A stretch of DNA of 64,000 nt. It comes from Moraxella haemolytica (GTDB lineage: Bacteria > Pseudomonadota > Gammaproteobacteria > Pseudomonadales > Moraxellaceae). This document shows positions 21,004 through 54,583 of this stretch, in pieces. Location: positions 806,001 to 870,000 of the forward strand of contig NZ_CP089974.1 in the NCBI RefSeq assembly GCF_030177935.1, in the 5' to 3' direction. Numbering within the stretch: position 1 is the stretch's first letter; every line of letters starts with the position of its first letter. The position numbers and the translations under genes are program-made. Under the pieces are notes generated by a model. That model made no database searches. It was given only the letters and a program-made list of their open reading frames with translations, and was not told the origin of the DNA.

Positions 21004-21213
21004 TTAGGCATCTACGATGTTTTGATTGGCATACATCTGCAATGCTTCAGTTACGATTTGGGCTTGTGATTTGCCTGTTTGTTTAGACAAATCCTTGACC
21101 AGCGCCACCGTATCTTCATGCAGTTTAAAGGCTTTATTGACAATGCCACGGTGTGCCATGCTGTCTTCGTTGATTTGGTGGCGTGTCTTTGGGTTTGATA
21201 TAGTTTTTGGCAT
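21004..21213 (-). CDS. Ribbon-helix-helix protein, copy 1 of a three-copy module
   Basis: The 69-residue product begins MPKTISNPKTRHQ and ends in an RHH-like helix pair (AFKLHEDTVALVKDLSKQTGKSQAQIVTEALQMYA). It resembles the 64-residue product at 40843-41037 (same MPK..NPK(T/S)R start, same spacing) and more distantly that at 38414-38623. Like them it lies downstream, on the same strand, of a ~20-residue hydrophobic peptide. It probably binds DNA, perhaps regulating its own unit. It is outside the attachment site, next to fossil phage DNA. Confidence 0.65.
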   Translation of the reverse strand: MPKTISNPKTRHQINEDSMAHRGIVNKAFKLHEDTVALVKDLSKQTGKSQAQIVTEALQMYANQNIVDA

Positions 21214-21254
21214 TTGACAACCCTTTAAAGTATTGCTAAGATAATCACAAGTTT

Positions 21255-21295
21255 TAGGAGAAACTGGGTGCTTGCACCACCCAGCTCAAGCCTTT
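21255..21295 (-). promoter_or_regulatory. Hairpin and anti-ribosome-binding-site between peptide 1 and its RHH gene
   Basis: On the minus strand a 7-bp hairpin (CTGGGTG/CACCCAG) is followed by TCTCCTA (21261-21255), a perfect 7-base complement of TAGGAGA (21386-21380), the ribosome binding site of the peptide gene upstream. Equivalent pairs occur in the other two copies. Confidence 0.5.
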
Positions 21296-21310: not shown

Positions 21311-21373
21311 TTACCAATCAGATGTGCTGAATAATACTAAGATTAAAACGATTGCGATTTTGAACATTTTCAT
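21311..21373 (-). CDS. 20-residue hydrophobic peptide, copy 1
   Basis: ATG at 21373 follows AGGAG with a 7-base gap. The product starts MKMFKIAIVLILVLF and ends TSDW: a short basic N-terminus and one membrane-spanning stretch. A hairpin-rich leader (TATCAAGAC/GTCTTGATA and GGTGTT/AACACC, 21432-21470) and a TATAAT at about 21468-21473 on the minus strand precede it. It resembles type I toxin peptides in size and character; function is not known. Confidence 0.5.
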   Translation of the reverse strand: MKMFKIAIVLILVLFSTSDW

Positions 21374-21483
21374 CGTTCATCTCCTAGGATAGCCACCACT
21401 TGACTTAGGTCGGTGGCGGTAACCTATCAAGACTCGGTGTTGCAACACCTTGTCTTGATAAAACATATTATAGGGTATCCTAC

Positions 21484-21513
21484 AAAAAAGCCAAGATAAA
21501 TCTTGGCTTTTTT
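21484..21513. terminator. Intrinsic terminator in the fossil phage segment
   Basis: An 8-bp stem (21489-21496 with 21501-21508), extended by A/T pairs, has a TAAA loop and T runs on both strands. A second hairpin with AACCGCT/AGCGGTT arms (21524-21549) and six T follows. Confidence 0.75.
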
Positions 21514-25933: not shown

Positions 25934-25972
25934 AAGAACTCCGAATATTTAGTTGGTAAATACCACATAGGG

Positions 25973-26051
25973 TGGCGGGCTTCAACTACCGTATTCGGAC
26001 GGCGGAACTTATTTCCCAAAGGGTGTTGTATTAGGTTCTCTCGACCCGCCA
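25973..26051 (-). ncRNA. C4-like antisense RNA element i, leader of BRO copy A
   Basis: On the minus strand the element closes with TGGCGGG/CCCGCCA arms and contains the shared CCGCC core. Its 3' loop TCCGAATA-cgg-TAGTTG (25999-25983) is complementary to CAACTA-aa-TATTCGGA (25955-25940), which covers the BRO gene's ribosome binding site: 8 + 6 perfect pairs. An intrinsic hairpin with six T (CCGC/GCGG, about 26099-26131) and a promoter (26155-26183) precede it. The layout and position match the P1/P22-type C4 RNA that silences antirepressor genes. Confidence 0.6.
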
Positions 26052-26183: not shown

Positions 26184-26251
26184 GATTTTTTAATAAAAAA
26201 AGCGATGATGACACTTTGTCAAAATCACTTTAAAAACCGCCAAGTTTAGGG

Positions 26252-26328
26252 TGGTAGGGCTTGCAGGGTTGGCGGACTGTTCCAACTAGTAAACAGCACT
26301 TCTTGCGAAGTCCCTACAAGCTCTACCA
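26252..26328 (-). ncRNA. Structured RNA element ii (second C4-like family)
   Basis: The 12-base arms TGGTAGAGCTTG and CAAGCCCTACCA (minus strand, 26328-26317 and 26263-26252) pair at 11 of 12 positions. Inside are ACTTCGCAAGAAGT and AGTCCGCCAAC. Element iii at 39127-39204 has the same layout with compensating changes. Element ii lies directly after BRO copy B, between the two BRO genes; its target is not clear. Confidence 0.5.
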
Positions 26329-26338
26329 TATCAGGATT

Positions 26339-38248: not shown

Positions 38249-38413
38249 TTGGGCAAGAAGGCTAAAATTCTAGGGATTTCAAAAGCCAAGTTTTGTCAAT
38301 CCCATGCCCTTGTTTATGACAGGGTTATGGGCGATGTGGCAGGCGAGCTAAGCTTGGCAGACGATGTGGCAGGCGAGTATTGGCGAAAAACATTTAGAGA
38401 AAACAGGGGCTAA
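38249..38413 (+). CDS. Possible small gene with TTG start
   Basis: From TTG 38249 the product is 54 residues, GKKAKILGISKAKFCQSHALVYDRVMGDVAGE then a tandem LADDVAGE. The helix-turn-helix-like start and regular codon use suggest a real or recently shortened phage protein, but no ribosome binding site is seen and the start is uncertain. Confidence 0.35.
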   Translation: MGKKAKILGISKAKFCQSHALVYDRVMGDVAGELSLADDVAGEYWRKTFRENRG

Positions 38414-38623
38414 TCAAGCCCCTTGTTCTAAGCGTTTGGCGTACTCAATAATCGCTTGTTTAATTGCCCCTGCACGGTTGCCGTTGTGGTGGGCTTTGAT
38501 TTTTTGTAGGGCTTCATAGGCTTCGGTGTCGTATTGACCTAGTAGCACTCGCACATCTTCTAGGGCTTTGGCAGTGTTTTTTTTGACGGCTTTGATTTGA
38601 GCGTGTGATGTCTTAATTGTCAT
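38414..38623 (-). CDS. Ribbon-helix-helix-like protein, copy 2 of the module
   Basis: The 69-residue product (IKAVKKNTAKALEDVRVLLGQYDTEAYEALQKIKAHHNGNRAGAIKQAIIEYAKRLEQ) has an RHH-like C-terminal helix pair. It lies downstream of the peptide at 38736 and converges with the small plus-strand ORF, adjoining it without a gap. Confidence 0.6.
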   Translation of the reverse strand: MTIKTSHAQIKAVKKNTAKALEDVRVLLGQYDTEAYEALQKIKAHHNGNRAGAIKQAIIEYAKRLEQGA

Positions 38624-38665
38624 AAAATACCCCTTGATTTTTTCAAATTAAATGGCATAATAAAG

Positions 38666-38698
38666 ATAAGGAGTGGTTAAGGGTTAGCCCCCTAACCA
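38666..38698 (-). promoter_or_regulatory. Hairpin and anti-ribosome-binding-site of peptide 2 unit
   Basis: GGTTAG/CTAACC hairpin (38683-38698), then ACTCCTTAT (minus strand, 38674-38666), a perfect 9-base complement of ATAAGGAGT (38816-38808), the peptide's ribosome binding site. Confidence 0.55.
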
Positions 38699-38735
38699 AA
38701 CCCCCAGTAGTTGCCGCTACTTTCGGGTTACCTGT

Positions 38736-38801
38736 TTAATACGCTGGTGTAGCGATTAAGAGCAGGATTATTAGGGCGATGATTTTGACTAGTGTGGTCA
38801 T
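38736..38801 (-). CDS. 21-residue hydrophobic peptide, copy 2
   Basis: ATG 38801 follows AAGGAG by 7 bases. The product starts MTTLVKIIALIILLL and ends PAY, as does copy 3. Upstream are a consensus promoter and two hairpins (GCTAGTG/CACTAGC and CTAGCAA/TTGCTAG, 38824-38865). The unit looks like a type I toxin gene in form; its function is unknown. Confidence 0.55.
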   Translation of the reverse strand: MTTLVKIIALIILLLIATPAY

Positions 38802-38873
38802 CGTCCAACTCCTTATGTTTACCGCTAGTGCTAGTCACTAGCACCTACCTAGCAACCCTTGCTAGATGTGCCT

Positions 38874-38902
38874 ATTATATATTGACTTAGATAATTTGTC
38901 AA
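38874..38902 (-). promoter_or_regulatory. Consensus promoter of the peptide 2 unit
   Basis: Minus strand TTGACA (38902-38897), 17 bases, TATAAT (38879-38874). An ATTGAC/GTCAAT palindrome around 38881-38903 overlaps it and may be an operator. Confidence 0.75.
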
Positions 38903-38924
38903 TATATAATTTAAAAAAATCCGC

Positions 38925-38979: not shown

Positions 38980-39126
38980 GGTTGCACATCGGCAAAATCC
39001 GATGTCAGACTTGGCGGTCTGGAATATGATTAGGGCAATATGCACGCCCCAAAGCGTGTTTTTTATTGCAAAAAATCCCCCATGAAAGGGGTTGGCTAAA
39101 AACCACACCCTTTAAAAATCAAATTA

Positions 39127-39204
39127 TGGTGGGACTAATAGAGACATCGCAAGATGTGCTGCTTTCCTAGTCGTGGCAGTCCGCCAACTCTGTTAGCCCT
39201 ACCA
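39127..39204 (+). ncRNA. Structured RNA element iii (second C4-like family)
   Basis: TGGTGGGACTAA (39127-39138) and TTAGCCCTACCA (39193-39204) pair at 11 of 12 positions, with the single A-C mismatch at the same place as in element ii. The inside has ACATCGCAAGATGT and CAGTCCGCCAAC. TTGGCGG at about 39214-39220 could pair instead with CCGCCAA. It precedes the coiled-coil membrane gene at 39268. Confidence 0.5.
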
Positions 39205-39267
39205 CCCTAAAACTTGGCGGTTTACTGTGGTAGGTTTTCCTAGACAAAACAAATAATAGGTGCTATT

Positions 39268-39703: not shown

Positions 39704-39783
39704 GGTTAGCGGTGCGATGAAATAAGGTTGCTTGCAACACGAATAAATCCGCCTGACTTGATACAGGTTTTGAGCCGCTAACC
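39704..39783 (+). ncRNA. C4-like antisense RNA element iv, leader of BRO copy C
   Basis: GGTTAGCGG (39704-39712) and CCGCTAACC (39775-39783) pair perfectly. The loop CTTGATA-c-AGGTT (39757-39769) matches the target AACCT (39839-39843) and TATCAAG (39856-39862), which flank the AAAAAGG ribosome binding site. A second stretch, ATATCTTTATGATA (39684-39697), can pair with TATCAAAAAGGTAT over the site itself. Compare element v, where the bases differ but pair again. Confidence 0.65.
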
Positions 39784-39862
39784 ACCCTAAATACTCCGTA
39801 ACGTCAAATTGACGGTACGAGAATCAAGGGTTAAATTCAACCTATCAAAAAGGTATATCAAG

Positions 39863-40842: not shown

Positions 40843-41037
40843 TTAAATTTTTTCGTAGGCTCTGATAGCATCCATAATCAGTTGATTTTGTGGAATGTTT
40901 CTATCTTTTGCCATCTGCTCAATGAGTGCAATGTCATCAAGGTGCAGGATAAAGCCTTTGGTTTTGACACCTCTTTTGGCATTGCTGTCGTATTGCGTTT
41001 GATTGCGTGATTTTGGGTTGTTGGTAACTTTAGGCAT
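40843..41037 (-). CDS. Ribbon-helix-helix protein, copy 3 of the module
   Basis: The 64-residue product (MPKVTNNPKSRNQ..., GFILHLDDIALIEQMAKDRNIPQNQLIMDAIRAYEK) is the closest relative of copy 1 at 21004. It is the downstream gene of a unit whose first gene is the 22-residue peptide at 41149. Confidence 0.65.
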   Translation of the reverse strand: MPKVTNNPKSRNQTQYDSNAKRGVKTKGFILHLDDIALIEQMAKDRNIPQNQLIMDAIRAYEKI

Positions 41038-41075
41038 TTGACAAATCCTTAAAATATGCTATCATAAAAAAAGTG

Positions 41076-41106
41076 TAAGGAGTGAGCTTATGTTTCCTAT
41101 AAGCTC
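41076..41106 (-). promoter_or_regulatory. Hairpin and anti-ribosome-binding-site of peptide 3 unit
   Basis: GAGCTTAT/ATAAGCTC hairpin (41084-41106), then CTCCTTA (minus strand, 41082-41076), complementary to TAAGGAG (41227-41221) before the peptide gene. Confidence 0.5.
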
Positions 41107-41148: not shown

Positions 41149-41217
41149 TTAATACGCTGGTAAGCTGTATAAGATAAAGATACCAATGATTACAAGTTGT
41201 GTGAGAACTGTCATCAT
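41149..41217 (-). CDS. 22-residue hydrophobic peptide, copy 3
   Basis: ATG 41217 or 41214 follows AAGGAG; the second has the better spacing. The product contains VLTQLVIIGIFILYS and ends PAY, as copy 2 does. Its leader has a CAAGGCAAG/CTTGCCTTG hairpin (41277-41300) and a CCACTT/AAGTGG hairpin. Confidence 0.55.
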   Translation of the reverse strand: MMTVLTQLVIIGIFILYSLPAY

Positions 41218-41307: not shown

Positions 41308-41336
41308 ATTGTATGTTAATCTACATTAAAAGTCAA
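41308..41336 (-). promoter_or_regulatory. Promoter of the peptide 3 unit
   Basis: Minus strand TTGACT (41336-41331), 17 bases, TACAAT (41313-41308). Confidence 0.65.
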
Positions 41337-54460: not shown

Positions 54461-54541
54461 GACCGACGGTGCGACGAATACAAAACCCAGTAATGGGGAA
54501 TAAGTCCGCCTGAATGTATTGCAGGTTTTGAGCCGTTGGTC
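54461..54541 (+). ncRNA. C4-like antisense RNA element v, leader of the antirepressor
   Basis: GACCGACGG (54461-54469) and CCGTTGGTC (54533-54541) pair with one G-U. Loop GTATTG-c-AGGTT (54516-54527) matches AACCT (54561-54565) and CAATAC (54577-54582), on both sides of the AAAAAGG ribosome binding site. ATACCTTATTTGATA (54440-54454) can pair with TATCAAAAAGGT over it. Relative to element iv, loop and target change together. Confidence 0.65.
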
Positions 54542-54583
54542 GCCCTTATGGGCTTAACTTAACCTATCAAAAAGGTCAATACT

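Follow-up and report, generated by a model that had tools for sequence, protein, structure and literature searches.

What kind of genetic unit combines, behind one promoter, a hydrophobic peptide of 21 residues, a sequence complementary to the SD of that peptide (anti-SD) and a gene for a small RHH-like protein? The question arises from a 64,000-nt stretch of the Moraxella haemolytica genome (NZ_CP089974.1, positions 806,001 to 870,000; this whole stretch is called the window below), where the arrangement was noticed in three copies. A first-pass annotation had reported for copy 1 a promoter, 5' hairpins, the peptide, a 9-base complement of its SD and the downstream gene, and all of these are present. 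It had read one strand, and the antisense promoter-like site located at each copy is absent from it. The reading that we favour, with a probability of about 0.8, is that the module belongs to the Ibs/Sib lineage of type I toxin-antitoxin systems, is carried by mobile elements and has acquired a co-transcribed ribbon-helix-helix (RHH) autorepressor.

Layout and distribution of the module

All the elements of the module were found in the sequence, on the minus strand:

38.4-38.9 kb, minus strand: module copy 1
38874..38902, minus: copy 1 sense promoter, sigma-70 type, TTGACA-17-TATAAT (12/12)
38880..38904, unstranded: copy 1 putative operator, an interrupted palindrome (TATTGAC-N11-GTCAATA) across the promoter
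38827..38867, minus: two 5' hairpins of the copy 1 toxin mRNA (predicted fold)
38808..38816, minus: copy 1 toxin SD, ATAAGGAGT
38736..38801, minus: copy 1 Ibs-like hydrophobic peptide of 21 aa, MTTLVKIIALIILLLIATPAY
38675..38729, minus: two hairpins of copy 1 in the interval from peptide to anti-SD (predicted fold; the first is also in the consensus fold)
38666..38674, minus: copy 1 anti-SD, ACTCCTTAT, a perfect 9-nt complement of the SD
38634..38661, plus: copy 1 antisense promoter-like site, TTGATT-16-CATAAT, with a TG preceding the -10
38668..38870, plus: copy 1 predicted Sib-like antisense RNA, both ends estimated (promoter and weak SIB_RNA match)
38414..38623, minus: copy 1 RHH-like protein of 69 aa, phrog_9399 (unknown function)
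38405..38423, minus: terminator-like hairpin where the copy 1 RHH gene ends
40.8-41.3 kb, minus: module copy 2
41308..41336, minus: copy 2 sense promoter, TTGACT-17-TACAAT, with TAGATTAACATA in the spacer
41149..41214, minus: copy 2 Ibs-like peptide, MTVLTQLVIIGIFILYSLPAY
41076..41082, minus: copy 2 anti-SD, CTCCTTA
41038..41065, plus: copy 2 antisense promoter-like site, TTGACA-16-TATCAT
40843..41037, minus: copy 2 RHH protein, phrog_3887 transcriptional regulator (Pfam RHH_1 below cut-off)
21.0-21.5 kb, minus: module copy 3
21467..21494, minus: copy 3 sense promoter, TTGGCT-16-TATAAT, with putative operator TAGGATACCCTA
21311..21373, minus: copy 3 Ibs-like peptide, MKMFKIAIVLILVLFSTSDW
21255..21261, minus: copy 3 anti-SD, TCTCCTA
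21214..21242, plus: copy 3 antisense promoter-like site, TTGACA-17-TAAGAT
21004..21213, minus: copy 3 RHH protein, phrog_3887 transcriptional regulator (Pfam RHH_1 below cut-off)

The order of elements in copy 1 recurs in copies 2 and 3, whose SD complement has 7 nt versus 9; thus the earlier claim of three copies built on one plan holds for the order, while the 9-nt complement is found in copy 1 only. The three copies sit within or next to a prophage. Copies 1 and 2 lie amid phage genes (terminase, portal, primase, antirepressor and an antitermination Q-like protein); copy 3 is flanked by a gene without PHROG match and by a phage helicase-like gene.

A covariance model (R1) was built from 23 Moraxellaceae loci, with no E. 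coli sequence. These loci came from 35 listed regions, of which 12 were excluded as irregular or divergent; copies 1 and 2 of the window were in the training set and copy 3 was out. R1 gave the three copies 115.6, 103.1 and 47.5 bits, respectively, the untrained copy 3 being detected at E 4.8e-9, and 38 strong matches (E ≤ 2.5e-5) were obtained in 344 family genomes. The first set of 36 loci comprised three without peptide (L004, L027 and L033) and, among the other 33, four duplicates. From 15 weak or new R1 loci, six were retained; eight without peptide (L104, L106-L111 and L113) were discarded, as was L112, which has a short ORF but no module.

The M. haemolytica genome itself contains seven modules, with between 3 and 10 differences in the 14 positions of their promoter spacers. 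Other carriers are the Moraxella catarrhalis phages Mcat15, Mcat28 and Mcat5, the Mannheimia phages vB_MhS_1152AP2 and, by inspection, PHL101 and vB_MhS_587AP2 (3 of 15 Mannheimia phage records were inspected), and the Kingella potus plasmid p1Npotu, which has two tandem copies, the second recognized by inspection only. A class-wide search with the peptide (369 genomes) returned only the genome of origin.

Several irregular forms were seen. At L074 and L051 (G003:C15, 93.2-94.2 kb) three Ibs-like copies without RHH gene stand in tandem, with near-identical promoters lacking an operator. In L025, L013 and L014 the peptide/UTR and RHH/operator parts appear reassorted, a similar peptide being found with another RHH or a similar RHH with other peptides. 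L030 (G012) is apparently a decayed module (no anti-SD, altered peptide C-terminus, no antisense promoter), and in L117 (phage Mcat5) the RHH frame is broken near its start and unannotated, with an intact toxin part next to it. The window also contains RNAs of known families: one isrK RNA and two antisense RNAs of the C4 family, all exceeding the Rfam thresholds (38986-39064 and 39122-39209 on the plus strand, 26247-26333 on the minus strand), located near antirepressor genes, copy 1 being directly beside one set; and two matches to sRNA-Xcc1 above threshold (54461-54549, plus; 25966-26050, minus), together with a weaker one at 39704-39791.

An Ibs/Sib-like toxin half with a predicted mRNA lock

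Judged on sequence, the module and the Ibs/Sib type I toxin-antitoxin system are distantly homologous. R1 detected both E. coli genes on the right strand, ibsB with an E value of 3.9e-8 and ibsA with one of 2.2e-6, and in E. coli K-12 the same order follows the stop codon of ibsA and ibsB: a hairpin, then CTCACTCCT. With the Pfam model Ibs_toxin (PF13956), matches at E ≤ 1 were obtained for 16 of the 23 peptides, the best at 3.6e-5; no match exceeded the Pfam cut-off in 199 family genomes and an NCBIfam search gave no Ibs match. When the 23 Moraxellaceae loci were given to the Rfam model SIB_RNA (RF00113), it was placed opposite the peptide strand at eight distinct places (L051 and L074 counted as one), with E values from 5.5e-5 to 0.28, all under the gathering score. 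The match at copy 1 is weak (38634-38817, 22.2 bits, E 0.27, below threshold), and none is listed at copies 2 and 3. The plan had initially been thought to be conserved without conservation of sequence, which is not the case: the peptides share the consensus MKTLxKLxxIxxLLLxSxPAY, the hydrophobic C-terminus is conserved, and pN/pS is 0.38-0.50 (L030 omitted). The nearest relative is therefore Ibs/Sib, the toxin half being of that type, and aapA, proposed at first as the model, was rejected as the closest match.

The pairing of SD and anti-SD, whose absence from homologous loci had been named beforehand as one of the refuting observations, covaries: own pairs scored 17.0 and swapped pairs 14.77 (sd 0.37, p 5e-5, n = 36). 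L015, L016 and L030 have no good SD complement. Together with the recurrence of the same order in tens of loci, the covariation sets the module beyond chance, and the suggestion that selection acts on the plan is upheld. Folding of 34 of the 36 loci (L030 and L069 were left out for want of the motif) left the SD unpaired at a level of 0.06 in the intact message; cutting the mRNA ahead of the anti-SD raised this to 0.61, and scrambling the anti-SD to 0.29. The SD was less open in the full than in the cut RNA in 33 of 34 loci, L005 being the exception, and less open than in the scrambled one in 30 of 34. For copies 1 and 2 the predicted folds were better than all 200 shuffles (z of -4.93 and -5.29). 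A lock was likewise predicted, with assumed 5' ends, for E. coli ibsA and ibsB and for one Mannheimia phage copy; with the same kind of assumption it was predicted in neither Kingella copy. Covariation and folding thus agree with the early proposal of a type I toxin-like mRNA that would be silenced by an anti-SD. We do not put forward this lock as a novelty: PMC6733600 already attributes long-range occlusion by an anti-SD located far downstream to the Sib paper of Han et al. (2010). For this reason, and because the toxin half is Ibs/Sib-like, the first-pass statement that no described system has this layout finds no support.

On the other strand, a promoter-like site sits between the anti-SD and the RHH start, which it sometimes abuts. 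Its mean score over 36 loci was 9.89 versus 7.28 for shuffled sequences, the highest of 60 shuffled set means being 7.71; several loci are near the shuffle mean and one, L030, has no such site. In 30 of the 36 loci the end of the -10 lies 6-13 nt ahead of the SD-mimic. The antisense RNA is predicted to start with the SD-mimic, the complement of the anti-SD forming its 5' tail in copy 1, and to span the toxin half.

Could the peptide be a regulatory leader that controls translation of the RHH gene, and no toxin at all? A short ORF upstream of a regulator, within an RNA of extensive predicted structure, would fit such a role. Against it stand the 7 of 38 strong matches where the same peptide module has no RHH gene, the homology with Ibs, the conserved hydrophobic C-terminus and the antisense promoter-like site; we consider it very improbable.

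The RHH-type partner and the promoter spacer

Inspection of the 38 strong matches showed an RHH-type ORF 69-122 nt past the toxin stop in 31 and none in 7, a share which may be biased since R1 was trained mostly on RHH-bearing loci. Two classes of downstream protein were distinguished, A (including copy 1) and B (including copies 2 and 3). RHH_1 recognises ten of the 15 class B members at E ≤ 0.1, and a comparison of the class B profile with CopG gave E 0.0014. Class A, copy 1 included, gave no Pfam RHH match and no RHH structure match; phrog_9399 is its only PHROG match (12 of 13 members), and its similarity to the class B profile is weak (hhalign E 9e-4, probability 23%). Of the downstream proteins described at first as RHH-like, those of copies 2 and 3 match RHH_1 below its cut-off, and that of copy 1 goes unrecognised by Pfam. 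Searches with the copy 1 protein revealed no relative among genome contigs and no match among plasmids and phages; phrog_3887, sought in 398 genomes, was found in the genome of origin only.

No sense promoter reaching at least 10/12 was found between peptide and RHH gene in any of 34 loci, whereas the main promoter reaches at least 10/12 in 28 of them; the RHH protein is thus probably made from the toxin mRNA.

The sequence of the RHH protein follows that of the promoter. Among 31 representatives of the 37 RHH loci, the distance between RHH proteins correlated with that between the 14-nt spacers preceding the -10 (Mantel r 0.62, p 0.0005, with permutations that treat loci as exchangeable); with the peptide, UTR, CDS and downstream region r was between -0.02 and 0.02, and with the DNA upstream of the -35 it was 0.22 (p 0.0005). 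Controlling for this upstream DNA left a partial correlation of 0.60. The relation also holds within classes (A, r 0.62, n = 15; B, r 0.44, n = 18; both p 0.0002; L030 omitted). When the operator of each locus was compared with that of its nearest neighbour (n = 34, the 31 representatives plus 3 added), the mismatches out of 16 were 3.7 for the nearest RHH neighbour, 6.9-7.2 for toxin-side neighbours and 7.9 for random ones. The spacers also tend to be palindromic where an RHH gene follows: the score was 4.44 versus 2.66 in shuffles for 34 RHH-bearing loci, and 2.75 versus 2.90 for 8 RHH-less ones, three of which have nearly identical promoters while the promoter call of another, L096, is doubtful (RHH-bearing versus RHH-less, p 0.004). 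Individually, 12 of the 34 loci were significant; the copy 1 spacer, which is common to relatives of the same protein class, scored 1 (p 1.0).

Individual cases illustrate the association. Acinetobacter locus L100 and copy 3 have the same RHH type and both carry TAGGATACCCTA. The copy 3 RHH type recurs in four loci, L120 to L123, of which L121 carries a module. The Acinetobacter loci L122 and L123 (identity of 54% across some 50 residues) lack a toxin and reach only weak R1 scores, and each still displays two TAGGATAYCCTA-like sites at the promoter, upstream of position 1495. L120, from Moraxella (the same as L027), has neither toxin nor operator. The Kingella plasmid and phage Mcat28 have the same RHH type and TAAGCTAGGCTATAAT in common, and in one more copy from the family the operator departs from that of copy 2 by a single mismatch. 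Mannheimia phage PHL101, with TAGGATACCCTA and a different RHH strand, is a counter-example to one-to-one pairing. From this co-segregation we infer that the RHH protein would bind an operator at its own promoter; the first-pass idea of a DNA-binding partner is supported as plausible.

Two other relations between the protein and the toxin may be weighed here. One is that the modules are ordinary Ibs/Sib ones and that the RHH gene lies downstream by accident, as a gene of the mobile element with no relation to them and with regulation of its own. RHH-less copies do exist (7 of 38), so that the toxin core is independent of RHH; RHH and peptide sequences are uncorrelated, and toxin-free RHH genes occur. 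Chance neighbourhood agrees poorly with the regular position of the ORF in 31 of 38 matches (the training bias of R1 being kept in mind), with the lack of a good intervening promoter in 34 loci and with an RHH type that tracks the operator lying beyond the toxin; we hold it to be unlikely. The other is that the RHH protein neutralises the peptide directly, like a type II antitoxin. RHH antitoxins are indeed common in toxin-antitoxin operons. Here, variation in the RHH protein is independent of that in the peptide (Mantel r 0.02), RHH-less copies exist, and RHH sequence follows the DNA and not the peptide, all of which make direct neutralisation highly improbable.

Proposed mode of action and known systems

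In the favoured reading, a single promoter would give a bicistronic mRNA encoding toxin and RHH protein. The anti-SD, about 140 nt downstream, would lock the toxin SD, so that the RHH protein could be translated from the same mRNA without the toxin; it would then bind the operator in the -35/-10 spacer and shut down the promoter. The Sib-like antisense RNA would start just past the anti-SD, on the other strand, and cover the toxin half while sparing the RHH half, lock and antisense RNA together allowing repressor production free of toxin. Should the mRNA be trimmed from its 3' side beyond the anti-SD while antisense RNA is scarce, the SD would open and the membrane peptide, presumably toxic, would be made. 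More tentatively, this three-layer module, with autorepressor, antisense RNA and mRNA lock combined on a single transcript, might possess incompatibility-like types defined by its RHH-operator pairs, a resident copy repressing only incomers of its own type. We regard this extension as rather doubtful; if true, it would let seven insulated copies share one genome and would settle which mobile elements can coexist.

With these results the range of Ibs/Sib-like modules widens to take in Moraxella, Acinetobacter, phages of Mannheimia and a plasmid of Kingella, and a type I system would gain a protein autorepressor. What looks new in the module is the RHH partner together with its matching operator: no report of an RHH-linked Ibs module was found in the literature covered, which took in few subscription papers and included parts of PMC4147584, PMC8309996 and PMC6733600. 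With so many RHH-operator pairs available in nature, seven of them within a single genome, the specificity of the repressors and the insulation of the modules can be tested directly.

How does the module compare with known systems? We know of no RHH partner for the AapA/IsoA system of H. pylori. AapA/IsoA resembles the module in the long-range SD/anti-SD lock of its toxin mRNA (PMC6733600) and differs by its peptide family; the peptides here matched Ibs_toxin. The yonT/SR6-yoyJ module of a B. subtilis prophage is also a type I module on a polycistronic mRNA (PMC5848175), but its second gene is another toxin and no repressor. CopG-type RHH repressors and antitoxins likewise associate a small RHH protein with a palindrome at its own promoter; unlike in those systems, the RHH protein is coupled here to a predicted RNA-regulated membrane peptide. 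The closest likeness is with Ibs/Sib: a hydrophobic peptide of 19-21 aa ending mostly in AY or VY, a hairpin and an anti-SD-like stretch after the stop codon, a predicted lock and tandem copies. The present modules depart from it in falling below the Pfam and Rfam cut-offs and in residing on prophages, phages and a plasmid; and whereas E. coli ibsA and ibsB have no adjacent RHH-type gene or matching operator, most copies described here possess both.
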